Source: Micromonospora halophytica
GTDB taxonomy: Bacteria; Actinomycetota; Actinomycetes; Mycobacteriales; Micromonosporaceae
Direction: 5' to 3'
Assembly: GCF_900090245.1 (NCBI RefSeq)
Contig: NZ_FMDN01000002.1
Span: forward strand, 434,001 to 498,000
DNA length: 64,000 nt
The position numbers were made by a program, and so were the translations under genes. Under the pieces are notes generated by a model. That model saw only the letters and a program-made list of their open reading frames with translations. It searched no databases and was not told where the DNA came from. How positions within the stretch are numbered: the stretch's first letter is position 1; each line of letters opens with the position of its first letter. Shown here piece after piece: positions 24,059 to 30,850 of this stretch.

Positions 24059-26749
24059 TCACAGCAGCCGCAGCTCGCGGGCCCGGCGGACCGCCTCGCG
24101 GCGGCGGGTCGCGTCGAGCTTGCGGTAGATGTTGCGTACGTGCGTCTTGACGGTGTTGACCGACAGCGACAGTTCACTGGCGATCTCCACGTTGGACAGG
24201 ATGCTCTGCAGGTACCGCAGGATGGTCAGCTCCCGTTCGGTCAGCGGCTCGTCCAGCGCCCGTTCCGCCCCGACCGGCCCCCGCACGGCCGGCTCCTCGG
24301 CGCCCCGGACCAGGTCGCTCACCGTCGGCCAGTGCGCGGTGCCGGAGTCCAGGTGGGCGGCGAGCAGGTCGCGTACCGCCGGCTCGGCGCGGGTGAACAC
24401 CCGCCGGTAGCCCTCCGGCGCGGCCAGGTCGAGCACCCGTTCCAGCAGCCGGCCGGCCCGCCGGTCGTCGCCGCCGCGCCGGGCCAGCACCGCGTCCAGC
24501 ACCCCGGCGGCGAGGCGTACCGGCAGCGGCCAGCCCTCGGCGACCGGGGTGTCCCACTCCGGCAGGGCGTACCCGGCGGCGCGCACGTCACCGGCCCGCA
24601 GCTCCACCCGGGCCAGCGCCACCGCCAGCGCCGGCGCCGGGTCGGGTTCCCGCGCCCGGTCGGCGATCAGGCCCCGGGCGGTGTCCACGTCTCCCTGCTC
24701 CCCGCGCAGGTCGGCCTCCAGGGCGAGCAACCGGTCCGCGAGTTCCCCGTCCGGCCACCCCTCGGCCCGCGCCGCGGCTGCCAGCCGGGCCGCCGCGGCG
24801 GCCTCACCGGCGTCGCGCAGCAGCAAGGCCCGGCAGAGCGCCGCCGCGGCCGCGCCGGTGCTCTCCGCACCGGCGGCGCCGGTGAGGCAGAGCTGCGCGG
24901 TCGCCTCCTCGGGCTGGTCACGGTGCAACGCCACCAGCGCCAACGCCAGATGCAGGTGGGCGCACTCGACCCGACTCGACCAGCCCTGGCAGGGCGGCAT
25001 CTCCAGCGCCGCCCGGGCGGTCCGCTCGGCCGCACGCAACTCGCCGGCCAGGGCGCGCAGCAGGGCCAGCCGGGCCGCGCAGACCAGCGCGGTACGCGGC
25101 CGTCCGGCCTCCCGGGCGGCGTCGTACGCGCCACCCAGCCGGGCCGCCGCCGCCCGCAGGTCACCCTCGGCGAGGTCGACCAGGCCGAGCGCCGCCCCGG
25201 CCACCGCCCGCACGTCGGCGTCCTCCCCGGCACCGGTACGCGGGTCCGCGTCCACGGTGGAGCCGGCCGGGGCACGGGTGCCCAGCAGCCGGGCGGCGGC
25301 GGCGCGTACCTCCCGGTGGTCGCCGGCCAGCCGGGCCAGGCTGAGCTCCACGGCGGTGGCCAGCCGGCGGAACCGGTCCCGGCGCGGGACGGGCAGGGAC
25401 TGCGCCGCCGCCACCGCGTCGCGCAGCCGGGCCCCGGCCGCCTCGGCGTCCCCGGCGTACGCCCGCTCGGCGGCGCAGGCCAGCGCCAGCTCCGGGTCAC
25501 GGCGGAGCGCCTCCACCGGGGGCGGTGGGGGTGGCGAGGTGGCCGGGGCCCGGTGGTCGTACGGGGCGAGTTCCGGCCAGCCGGTGAGCAGCAGCTCGCT
25601 CGCCCGGTCCCACTCCCGCGCGGCGAGCGCGTGCCGCAGCGCCTCGGCGGGGCGGTCGTGCGCGGCGTACCAGCCGGCGGCGCGCAGGTGCAGTTCCCGC
25701 CGGTCCCGCTCGTCCAGCCCGCCGAACTCGTCGCGCAGCAGGTCGGCCAGGAGCGGGTGGGCCCGGTACCACGGCGGGTCGCTGTCGTCGGCGTGCAGGA
25801 AACCGCCGTCGCGGGCCAGCCCGGCGAGCACCTGCCCACCGTCGTCGCGGCCGGTCAGCACGTCGGCGAGGTCGGCCCGCACGACCGGGCTGACCGCGGT
25901 ACGCCGCAGCAGCTCCCGCGCCTGCGGCGGCAGCCCGCCCAGCACCTCCGTGCGCAGGTACGCGGCGATCTCCGGCTGGTCGCCGCCGAACCGCTCCGCC
26001 CAGCGTTCCGGGTCCGGGCGCTCCCGGGCGGCCAGCGCGGCGAACCGCAGGCCGGCGGGCCAGCCGCCGGTGCGCTCCCGCAGCCGGGTGACCGCCGCCG
26101 CGGGCAGTGGGGTGCCGTGCGCGACGAGCAGGTCGGCGACCTCGTCGACGGTGAAGGCCAGCTCGTCCGGGCCGATCTCGGTCAGCTCGCCGGCCAGGCG
26201 CAGCCGGTGCAGCGGCAGCGGCAGCTCGCCCCGGGCCCCGGCGACCAGCCGCAACCGCCCGTCGGTGTGCCGCAGCAGGAACTCCAGCCCGGTCAGCGCG
26301 GCCGGATCAGCCACCCGGTGCAGGTCGTCCAGGACCAGCACCACCGGCTGCTCCCGGGCGGCCAGCGCGGCGGCGAGCAGTTCCAGCTGGTCGGGGCGGG
26401 GCGTGGTGGCCGGCACGGGCGGCCCGGGCTCGTGCCCGGCCACGCCGTGCAGCGCCGCCGCCAGGTACGCCCAGAGCCGTTCCCCGGTGTCGCCCTCCTC
26501 GGCCTGCACCCAGGCCGGCGCGGGCTCCGACGTGCCGCGCGCCCAGGTCGCCAGCAGCGTGGTCTTGCCCCAGCCGGCGGGCGCGCGGACCAGGGTGACC
26601 GGGCCGGCGGTCCCGGTGTCCAGGCGGGCGGTCAGCCGGGGCCGCAGCAGCAACGGCTCGGGCGGGGCGGGCGGCGTCAGCCGGGAGGCGAGCAGGGGCG
26701 GGCCGGCGGACGCCTCGGCCATCCCGTTGGTGCTGCGCTGTTGCGGCAT
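24059..26749 (-). CDS. MalT-like (LAL) LuxR-family ATPase regulator
   Basis: An 896-aa signal-responsive regulator. An N-terminal AAA+/STAND ATPase has Walker A (VRAPAGWGKTTLL, about 55-70) and VLVLDDLH as Walker B, followed by a large helical repeat region, and a C-terminal LuxR HTH (LTERELTILRYLQSILSNVE, then SVNTVKTHVRNIYRKL). ATG 26749 is preferred because a G-rich site precedes it; the frame is open to a GTG at 26758. It is divergent from the small-protein/dehydrogenase operon at 26925, the most obvious candidate target. The ligand is unknown. Confidence 0.88.
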   Translation of the reverse strand: MPQQRSTNGMAEASAGPPLLASRLTPPAPPEPLLLRPRLTARLDTGTAGPVTLVRAPAGWGKTTLLATWARGTSEPAPAWVQAEEGDTGERLWAYLAAALHGVAGHEPGPPVPATTPRPDQLELLAAALAAREQPVVLVLDDLHRVADPAALTGLEFLLRHTDGRLRLVAGARGELPLPLHRLRLAGELTEIGPDELAFTVDEVADLLVAHGTPLPAAAVTRLRERTGGWPAGLRFAALAARERPDPERWAERFGGDQPEIAAYLRTEVLGGLPPQARELLRRTAVSPVVRADLADVLTGRDDGGQVLAGLARDGGFLHADDSDPPWYRAHPLLADLLRDEFGGLDERDRRELHLRAAGWYAAHDRPAEALRHALAAREWDRASELLLTGWPELAPYDHRAPATSPPPPPPVEALRRDPELALACAAERAYAGDAEAAGARLRDAVAAAQSLPVPRRDRFRRLATAVELSLARLAGDHREVRAAAARLLGTRAPAGSTVDADPRTGAGEDADVRAVAGAALGLVDLAEGDLRAAAARLGGAYDAAREAGRPRTALVCAARLALLRALAGELRAAERTARAALEMPPCQGWSSRVECAHLHLALALVALHRDQPEEATAQLCLTGAAGAESTGAAAAALCRALLLRDAGEAAAAARLAAAARAEGWPDGELADRLLALEADLRGEQGDVDTARGLIADRAREPDPAPALAVALARVELRAGDVRAAGYALPEWDTPVAEGWPLPVRLAAGVLDAVLARRGGDDRRAGRLLERVLDLAAPEGYRRVFTRAEPAVRDLLAAHLDSGTAHWPTVSDLVRGAEEPAVRGPVGAERALDEPLTERELTILRYLQSILSNVEIASELSLSVNTVKTHVRNIYRKLDATRRREAVRRARELRLL

Positions 26750-26924
26750 CCGTGCCACCCCCGTCGGACGCGGTCCTCCCCCGGTCGGCGGCGGTTACCC
26801 GGCCCGGGGCGGTTCACCCCTTCGGGGGGAGCCGGGTTCACCCGGGCCGCGCCGACCATGGGCCTACGCGGGCGACCGGTCGCGCGTGACCGGTCGCCCG
26901 TACCGAGAGCGGCGGGAGGGACAG

Positions 26925-29716: not shown

Positions 29717-29764
29717 GCCGGCGCGCTTGACCCTCAACCTGGTGGAGGCCACAGGATCCTCGGT

Positions 29765-30850
29765 GTGGAGAGCGAGCTGCGCAGCATCGGCGAGCTGGCC
29801 CGGGCCAGCGGCCTGACGGTCAGCGCCCTGCGGTTCTACGACCGCACCGGGGTGCTCGCCCCGGCGCTGGTCGATCCGGTGACCGGCTACCGCTGGTACA
29901 CCGACGAGCAGGTGATCCCGGCCCGGCTGGTGGCCGGGCTGCGCCGGGTGGGCCTGCCGCTGACCGAGATCGGTGTCGCGCTGCGGCACCGGCACGAGCC
30001 GGCGGTGGTCGGGCGGCTGCTCGACGCGCACCTGCGCCGGCTGGAGGACGGCCTCGCCGACGCCCGCCGTGAACTCTCCCGCGTCCGCGCCCTGCTCGCA
30101 CCCGAGGAGAACCTGATGACCACCAGACTGTTCCTGTCCCGCGCCGACCTGGCCGCCGCCGTCGACGCCGTCCGTTTCGCGGTGGGCGCCGACCCGGACC
30201 TGCCGGTGCTGGCCGGCGTGCTGCTCGACGTCGAGCCGGACGGCCTACGGCTGGTCGCCACCGACCGGCACCGGCTGGCGGTGGCCCGGGCCGCCGGCAG
30301 GGTCGACGGCCCGCCCGTGCGGGCGCTGCTGCCGGTCGACGCGGTGGACGAACTGCGGACCCTGCTGGACACCGGCGAAGGAGCGACCCCGGAGGTGGGC
30401 GTGATGCTGACCGACGGTCGGGTCACCGCCTCGGTCGCCGGCCGGGAGGTCACCGCCACCGCCCTGCCGTACGACTTCCCCGACTACCGGCGGCTGCTGC
30501 GTCGGACGGCCGACGACGGGCCGACCCGGCGGGTCCCGGTCGACGCGGCGGCGCTGCGCGACGACACCGCGCCCACCGTCACCCGGGAGCATGACGGCGT
30601 GCCGCTGGCGGTGACCGTGCTCGGTGTCCGCGACGCCGACGGGCTGCGTCTGGTCGGCGCGGACGAGCCGGCCGGGGACGACCCCGACGAGCTGCGTGTC
30701 GGGGTGAACGGGGGTTACCTGCTCGACGCGCTGGACGCCGCCGGGGCGCCGCAGCTGGTGCTGGAGCTGGACGGCCCGATCGCACCGCTGGCGATCCGTC
30801 GTCCGGACGACGCGGACGCCTTCTCCATCCTGATGCCGATCCGCCTCTGA
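29765..30850 (+). CDS. MerR-type regulator fused to a DNA sliding-clamp (DnaN)-like domain
   Basis: A 361-aa two-part protein. Residues about 5-110 are a MerR winged helix (SIGELARASGLTVSALRFYD, then the wing RWYTDEQVIPARLVAGLRRV) with a dimerisation helix. Residues about 118-361 resemble domains 2-3 of the DNA polymerase III beta subunit: RHRLAVARA near 175, VNGGYLLDALDAAG near 313 and the C-terminal ILMPIRL that in beta clamps closes the peptide pocket region. The first clamp domain is missing. The GTG at 29765 is the only good start. It is known as an actinobacterial 'MerR with beta-clamp' annotation, but with no role established to my knowledge. Confidence 0.85.
   Translation: MESELRSIGELARASGLTVSALRFYDRTGVLAPALVDPVTGYRWYTDEQVIPARLVAGLRRVGLPLTEIGVALRHRHEPAVVGRLLDAHLRRLEDGLADARRELSRVRALLAPEENLMTTRLFLSRADLAAAVDAVRFAVGADPDLPVLAGVLLDVEPDGLRLVATDRHRLAVARAAGRVDGPPVRALLPVDAVDELRTLLDTGEGATPEVGVMLTDGRVTASVAGREVTATALPYDFPDYRRLLRRTADDGPTRRVPVDAAALRDDTAPTVTREHDGVPLAVTVLGVRDADGLRLVGADEPAGDDPDELRVGVNGGYLLDALDAAGAPQLVLELDGPIAPLAIRRPDDADAFSILMPIRL

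Follow-up and report, generated by a model that had tools for sequence, protein, structure and literature searches.

Regulators of the MerR family with varied effector domains are already known. In those of the BmrR type, multidrug sensors with a GyrI-like domain, an effector pocket controls a MerR promoter. In BlaR1 and MecR1, the sensor domain is a relative of an antibiotic target or of a resistance enzyme. The closest described system to the one presented here is the TipA class. TipAL of Streptomyces lividans is described (PMC7762955) as a MerR N-terminus and coiled coil, followed by a C-terminal ligand domain. The tipA gene autoregulates, from a self-activated promoter, and makes both TipAL and a predominant, drug-sequestering TipAS from two start codons, the second producing the ligand domain alone (PMC7762955).

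The beta sliding clamp, DnaN, has a pocket, in domains II and III, for proteins and antibiotics. Amplification of dnaN is described as resistance to clamp antibiotics. Producers of griselimycin and mycoplanecin carry second DnaN copies, griR and mypR, for self-resistance, and the clamp is called a validated target for tuberculosis (PMC10817943).

Here, we describe a gene, from Micromonospora halophytica, in which a MerR regulator is fused to part of the clamp. As in TipA, a MerR N-terminus and coiled coil precede a C-terminal domain, here a putative ligand domain, and the self-activated promoter and second start have predicted counterparts. Unlike TipA, the putative ligand domain is a pair of clamp domains, II and III, instead of TipAS, and a link to dnaN and oriC is predicted in one genus. 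Among solved structures, the MerR half best matches BmrR, but the effector is a clamp fold, the copy of a replication protein. While the fusion shares with DnaN the pocket and the predicted fold of domains II and III, it has no domain I, the interface of domain III is shortened, and the whole is joined to a DNA-binding regulator. BlaR1 and MecR1 differ in signalling through a membrane protease, and are unrelated proteins. GriR and MypR are similar in being extra clamp copies that answer a clamp antibiotic but, as described in PMC10817943, they are DnaN-encoding genes of antibiotic pathways rather than regulators. The new part would be the sliding-clamp sensor. Among the matches listed by a literature search, with partial open-access coverage, there was no regulator with such a sensor; for the promoter, the search gave one match, which is unrelated. 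In a comparative paper on MerR proteins (PMC5045206), there is nothing on DnaN, the clamp, or polymerase III.

A MerR regulator joined to two domains of the sliding clamp

The window, by which we mean the whole stretch of 64,000 nucleotides analysed, contains the following features of the locus. The main subfamily is defined below.

29727-29757, + strand: MerR-type promoter, conserved in every main-subfamily locus read
29765-30850, + strand: MerR-DnaN(II-III) fusion gene, GTG start, 361 amino acids plus stop
29783-29986, + strand: MerR winged-helix DNA-binding domain (residues 7-74; PF13411; pLDDT about 90)
29999-30097, + strand: long helix (residues 79-111), located where MerR proteins have their dimerisation coiled coil; from the secondary structure of the model
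30104-30109, + strand: candidate internal ribosome-binding site, GAGGAG; a Shine-Dalgarno (SD) and start pair is common at the junction
30116-30118, + strand: candidate internal start, ATG, codon 118, of a predicted mini-clamp (residues 118-361), from sequence signals
30122-30499, + strand: clamp domain II (about residues 120-245; PF02767 and structure match)
30500-30847, + strand: clamp domain III (about residues 246-361; structure match, Pfam under cut-off)

Residues 1-112 comprise the MerR winged helix and coiled coil, and residues 118-361 domains II and III of DnaN. In the first part, Pfam model MerR_1 (PF13411) matches residues 7-74 (E 4.2e-12; 46.4 bits, cut-off 21.6) and PF00376 scores 40.4 bits (cut-off 28.2). 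The best match of this half to a solved structure, using phmmer, is the Bmr regulator (residues 4-72, E 1.2e-12). By analogy with the MerR family, helix 79-111 would serve dimer formation. In the second part, DNA_pol3_beta_2 (PF02767) matches residues 125-240 (E 2.4e-15; 57.3 bits, cut-off 27). DNA_pol3_beta_3 matches residues 308-360 weakly (23.3 bits, under the cut-off of 27), and PF00712 (23.5 bits against a cut-off of 24.4) falls on domain II, which is a related fold. Residues 120-361 align, by phmmer, with domains II and III of solved clamps (best E 1.4e-17), and a profile search agrees. Domain I is lacking; the clamp part has 244 amino acids and the alignment begins at the start of domain II. 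Each chain has only these two domains, compared with three in DnaN. Together with the structure match below, these results bear out the sequence-only reading of the gene as a MerR regulator with a truncated clamp, having domains 2 and 3 and no domain 1.

A complete DnaN, of 377 amino acids, is encoded at a separate place in the host genome. The clamp half is 26% identical to it over 227 positions, and the fusion is under the equivalog threshold of the DnaN model TIGR00663 (78.2 bits, cut-off 137.65). None of the NCBIfam models matches the fusion at its cut-off. The TipAS domain, PF07739, gives no match up to E 1; the C-terminus matches DnaN.

A few genes off, at 24059-26758 of the window (- strand), is an 899-residue open reading frame that we named, by eye, a large LuxR-type regulator. 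Elsewhere in the same genome, Pfam detects a fusion of MerR to a PP2C phosphatase (G000:C46:2838-3302; L002:1339-2565), with a possible ATG at its junction, noted by eye. The combination of MerR with a separable effector may be a wider actinobacterial theme.

Distribution of the fusion

Since homologues are found in many genomes, across Micromonospora and the Micromonosporaceae, a chance fusion or reading-frame artefact is ruled out. With E<=1e-35 as the threshold, the fusion is matched in 59 of 61 Micromonospora genomes. Among these, G309 has a distant homologue only and G333 is frameshifted; G301, matched in two pieces of one open frame, was counted as intact. The same threshold, with distant homologues included, gives 70 of 150 Micromonosporaceae genomes and 16 of 44 genera. 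In the class, 28 of 296 genomes match at E<=1e-30, or 27 once G136 is set aside, its match being, by reading, a MerR-phosphatase fusion. There are two subfamilies, main and distant. Outside the Micromonosporaceae, the main subfamily includes 11 loci (L026-L036, from families f20, f21 and f41) and two Pseudonocardia records. Note that L035 was kept in the fusion count, although its match begins at position 33 and there seems to be a frameshift close to the 5' end. The distant subfamily comprises 13 loci (L037-L049). Pfam was run on five of the 24 proteins of L026-L049 (L026, L034, L038, L039 and L043) and found MerR and DnaN domains in all five.

All Micromonospora loci read have the fusion flanked by sacDH (dehydrogenase-like, upstream), serS (downstream), or both. 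Neither neighbour was beside the fusion in the 12 loci read elsewhere. Hence, the gene works in different places, and we do not count sacDH and serS as parts of the system or its targets. In the distant subfamily, a small TPR gene is directly 3' of the fusion at 11 of 13 loci (L037-L041 and L044-L049). At L038, TPR and fusion are in one open frame.

Predicted fold and conservation of the clamp pocket

The whole fusion was modelled with AlphaFold using 15 sequences (mean pLDDT 77.1, pTM 0.55). The MerR part and domain II are mostly confident. Domain III scores between 54 and 71, in blocks of 10 residues, and the last residue 30. When the clamp half was predicted alone (pLDDT 73.0, pTM 0.68), confidence in domain III was again modest. 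The predicted fold of the C-terminal part is that of clamp domains II and III, as supposed from the sequence; it superimposes on residues 121-366 of the E. coli clamp over 227 residues (Z 23.4, rmsd 2.7). Further matches are the clamps of M. tuberculosis (Z 22.9), M. smegmatis, solved with a natural product (Z 21.9), and E. coli with mycoplanecin (Z 20.5). Foldseek agrees with the clamp match. The pocket residues of the window protein are as follows.

Domain II, most of pocket subsite I: L149, T166, R168, H169, R170, L171, P239, R243, L244
Domain III, pocket residues kept: N315, Y318, I355, M357, P358, R360

We aligned 21 pocket columns. These are the residues of a published list, without V344, and four more (Y154, F241, S346 and V361) that we take to be pocket neighbours. 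The list is that of a review, PMC11139829, and was mapped through the E. coli protein. Loci L019, L036, L138, L143, L145, L147, L151, L154 and L155 were left out of the main-subfamily alignment, and L040 and L046 out of that for the distant subfamily. The window protein keeps equivalents of T172, H175, R176, L177, P242, M362, P363 and R365. Position 174 is R in the window protein, in 49 of 49 main-subfamily fusions, and in all 38 actinobacterial DnaN proteins aligned. Equivalents of L155, T172, R176, M362 and P363 are invariant in the 49 fusions; P242 and R365 are each kept in 48, R246 in 46, and L177 in 40 (M in the other 9). Domain III is shorter on the side that forms the contact with domain I in DnaN. 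In this stretch, where the alignment is uncertain, E. coli I272 and L273 align with D and T of the window protein. Mycoplanecin contacts Arg365 of the clamp and moves Met362 (PMC10817943); the fusion keeps both equivalents.

In the main subfamily, mean entropy is 0.45 in the pocket columns and 1.37 elsewhere in the clamp half (21 versus 221 columns, p 4e-7). Hence, within this half, it is mostly the pocket that is conserved. The contrast is smaller in the 38 DnaN proteins (0.54 versus 0.98). In 11 distant-subfamily members the values are 0.85 and 1.36; N320 and Y323 are not kept, and R365 is found in only 4 of 11. One could argue that the clamp half has become a scaffold, or a degenerate domain, that senses a small molecule away from the pocket or a partner protein. 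The 26% identity to host DnaN, the shortened domain III, and the distant subfamily's lack of several subsite II residues all fit such a view, and the TPR protein encoded 3' of distant fusions might be the partner. We think this improbable, however, given that pocket residues, on whose presence in homologues the sequence-only reading depended, are present and form the best-conserved section of the main-subfamily clamp half.

A probably leaderless promoter and a candidate internal start

The -35 element of the fusion's promoter, TTGACC (29727-29732), and the -10-like element, CAGGAT (29752-29757), are 19 bp apart, which is the spacing of MerR-activated promoters. The spacer contains the near-palindrome CCTCAACCTGGTGGAGG, the first base of which is the last of the -35 element. 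The GTG start codon is 7 nt after CAGGAT. Because this is where transcription should begin, the mRNA is probably leaderless. The motif is present at 16 of 16 loci aligned and, with up to two mismatches, at 45 of 45 re-scanned (15 of the first 16 included). It was found in all 11 main-subfamily loci outside the family (33.0-46.3 bits) and in all 14 read from other genera of the family (34.9-49.3 bits); the 13 distant-subfamily loci all have a related, weaker promoter (11.3-28.9 bits). Within the window, the promoter scores 47.8 bits and the next best place 8.4. Judged by these sequences, autoregulation looks to be a general feature of the fusion.

The junction between the two halves reads GAGGAGAACCTGATG, with ATG, in frame, as codon 118. 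An SD-like sequence, followed by ATG or GTG, occurs at the junction of 36 of 55 main-subfamily fusions, compared with 30 of 1286 other in-frame ATG or GTG codons. Note that the associated Fisher p value, 1.6e-38, comes from sequences that are not independent, and that EE linker codons help to form the SD. The count covers the main subfamily only, without L019 (partial), L036 (which has N) and L155 (no anchor). The signals occur in members from families f20 and f41, Pseudonocardia and Micromonospora, with a candidate at 8 of 14 loci from other genera of the family. They are missing in 19 of the 55: 17 are from Micromonospora and two from family f21. The start-less Micromonospora that were placed on a serS tree are all in one clade. 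If used, the start would yield a free mini-clamp, as for TipAL and TipAS. If so, other actinobacterial MerR fusions may likewise release their sensor domain by way of an internal start.

The gene's resemblance to tipA lies in its promoter and the candidate internal start, neither of which the sequence-only reading mentions. Our main reading, with a probability of roughly 0.5, is that it is a TipA-like, one-gene sensor and decoy, in which the sensor is a truncated copy of the antibiotic target. What it senses is probably an attack on, or occupation of, the clamp ring, to which it would make the cell respond. In this scheme, a dimer of the MerR half would occupy the 19-bp spacer, which is overlong, in the probably leaderless promoter of the gene. 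Since it lacks domain I, the clamp half should be unable to form the usual ring, but it would keep the pocket in domains II and III, which in the real clamp is the binding site for polymerase motifs, griselimycin and mycoplanecin. A ligand in the pocket would flip the MerR dimer to activation. The resulting transcript would encode the full regulator and, from the internal start, a mini-clamp that soaks up ligand. The likeliest ligand would be a clamp-binding natural product, such as griselimycin or mycoplanecin. From the architecture, predicted fold, pocket conservation, promoter, its twin at dnaN (below) and the internal start signals, all read from sequence, we infer the DNA binding, activation, ligand and decoy role. 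If true, an essential replication protein would have given rise to a sensor that mimics an antibiotic target, and the fusion would be a natural biosensor with which to look for new antibiotics against the clamp.

A second promoter site upstream of dnaN

We searched the 6.27 Mb host genome with the 22-bp core of the promoter, allowing up to three mismatches. This gave 27 places, compared with 9 for a reversed-pattern control; two are perfect, none has one mismatch, two have two, and 23 have three. One of the perfect places is the promoter of the fusion itself and the other is at C31:176115-176136 (- strand), within a whole promoter at C31:176106-176136. The latter is between the end of dnaA and a cluster of TTGTCCACA-like boxes, presumably DnaA boxes given their consensus, and reads towards dnaN. 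Its TTGACC is 691 bp before the dnaN ATG.

In 61 Micromonospora genomes, with at most one mismatch, there are 123 places, compared with 1 for the reversed control. These places are 55 fusion promoters, 20 sites upstream of dnaN, and 48 elsewhere. By this measure, the dnaN site is in only 20 of the 61 genomes. A matrix made from 24 distinct fusion promoters finds it in 56 of 61, 688-714 bp upstream, at 13.6-49.5 bits; 305 shuffles reach at most 2.4 bits. When the matrix is restricted to promoters from outside the genus (22 of them), the same 56 sites, all 688-714 bp upstream, score 7.5-43.4 bits, each above the shuffles (305; at most 5.4 bits). Many are weaker than the perfect site, with a changed half or a -35 element such as TGGACT (one clade), and the weakest are those of G303 and G319.

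Conversely, the site was found in none of the 24 fusion genomes read elsewhere in the class (the best place, at 3.1 bits, lies within dnaA by eye), and in none of the 19 read, of 54 found, from other genera of the family (best -7.2 bits). It was also absent from fusion-less genomes, 5 from elsewhere in the class and 11 from other genera of the family. Universal control of dnaN by the fusion is hence ruled out, given the 43 fusion genomes read outside Micromonospora. For the same reason, control of dnaN, as predicted from sequence, is probably an addition made in Micromonospora. There, because the same promoter is found 691 bp upstream of dnaN, the response would also raise dnaN, which is the target, although from a distance and across oriC. 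The expectation, from sequence alone, of sites near replication genes thus holds, in the sequence, for Micromonospora, at dnaN and oriC, but no dnaN site was found in the genomes read outside the genus. The roles first suggested, as open alternatives, were a module for ligand binding or protein docking and a coupling of transcription to replication; these are supported in part.

An ATG or GTG is 5-7 nt after the -10 element at 54 of the 56 dnaN-upstream sites (e.g. L072, about 2600, - strand). We rejected a conserved protein behind this promoter, as the frames vary in length and sequence among clades. The codon may mark a leaderless peptide, or a preference in transcription start. Second DnaN genes, 43-78% identical to the query clamp, occur at G303:C1:708685, G327:C18:118622 and G329:C1:2030268, and also in G018, G191 and G261. 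They are candidates for antibiotic-resistant clamp copies. No promoter site was found upstream of them on the dnaN strand (best -0.7 bits for G303, -10.5 for G327 and -14.2 for G329).

A tentative extension is that the clamp has been turned into a transcription-factor sensor of pocket occupancy, which feeds back on transcription at dnaN and oriC, with the mini-clamp as decoy or brake. If this is true, there would be a direct protein link from the state of the replisome, or attack on it, to dnaN/oriC transcription, and a testable control circuit in Micromonospora.

Fusion and dnaN site are lost together

Five of the 61 Micromonospora genomes are without the dnaN site: G336, G309, G307, G333 and G095. 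In the first three, the stretch from the dehydrogenase-like gene to serS is short (98, 102 and 286 bp, respectively). Hence, the fusion is cleanly absent there. A divergent copy is found elsewhere in G307; for G309 there is just the distant homologue. The fusion of G333 carries a frameshift, and the best-scoring place there, 690 bp upstream of dnaN, has -7.1 bits and looks like a spoilt site. The counterexample is G095, with an intact fusion and no dnaN site. Fusion and serS are both missing from G344, in which the site is kept (26.1 bits). As serS is the usual neighbour, an assembly gap probably explains the missing fusion. Two gene trees place G307, G309 and G336 in a single clade; G333, which is in the serS tree only, lies apart. 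There have therefore been about two independent co-losses of fusion and site. The site is present in 55 of 57 genomes with the fusion, the two exceptions being G307 and G095, and in 0 of 3 without (Fisher p 0.00029, G344 omitted). With G344 counted as fusion-less, p is 0.0011. Both values ignore kinship.

Such co-loss would also be expected if the fusion serves replication homeostasis. In that case, the pocket would bind proteins with which the cell's clamp normally interacts (polymerase, clamp loader, repair proteins), and a free excess of these, or scarcity of the clamp, would make the regulator switch dnaN transcription. Transcription through oriC would perhaps also open it, and the mini-clamp would be a brake that titrates clamp-binding proteins. 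The kept pocket is equally expected with such a ligand, and the promoter twin, which in 56 of 61 Micromonospora genomes is upstream of dnaN and borders the cluster of DnaA boxes, also speaks for this function. The near-universal presence of the fusion in Micromonospora leans the same way, fitting a housekeeping role at least as well. However, the internal start, and exporters under the motif (below), look like a drug response, towards which the missing dnaN site elsewhere leans also. Since fusion genomes read outside Micromonospora have no such site, clamp homeostasis is not the general role. We consider this explanation, the main rival of our reading, rather unlikely, although sequence alone cannot separate drug sensing from sensing of the cell's own proteins.

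Other genes preceded by the motif

Returning to the sensor and decoy, the motif also precedes exporter genes in some clades, and these could form part of the response. We read 20 stretches around 20 of the 48 other motif places in Micromonospora. Downstream of the motif, an MFS gene of one kind is found in four stretches (L161-L164) and another MFS gene in at least two (L170 by Pfam, L179 by reading). For the first, the matches to TIGR00900, an H+ antiporter model, and to drug-efflux models are all under cut-off. A motif place 40-54 kb from dnaN occurs in 10 of 61 Micromonospora genomes, of which four (L161-L164) were read. Five stretches have a TPR gene (L165-L167, L172 and L174), with a weaker match in L175, and two a YunG-like gene (L168, from Pfam, and L177, from reading). 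As TPR genes also adjoin distant-subfamily fusions, their position suggests a functional tie to the fusion. One query, which is a weak test, found no such gene in the host. When up to one mismatch is allowed in 11 genomes outside the family, the motif occurs at 10 of the fusions' own promoters and one other place. Hence, no exporter is tied to the motif in those genomes, and control of exporters by the fusion is a prediction from the Micromonospora sequences.

Exporter promoters are typical MerR targets. This, with the presence of other MerR proteins in the host, and of motif-bearing genes far from the fusion in other genomes, could mean that a different MerR-family protein uses the dnaN-upstream site and that the fusion regulates only itself. 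We would be surprised if this were so. The host has no third perfect place, nor any with one mismatch, and the surroundings of five other MerR-like matches, those read, score at most 12.7 bits, compared with 47.8 and 49.5 for the two sites. Furthermore, a motif derived from the fusions of other genera predicts the dnaN site, and fusion and site are lost together. Several of the motif places precede unrelated genes. Finally, L098 too has an exporter-like MFS gene with a fusion-type promoter.
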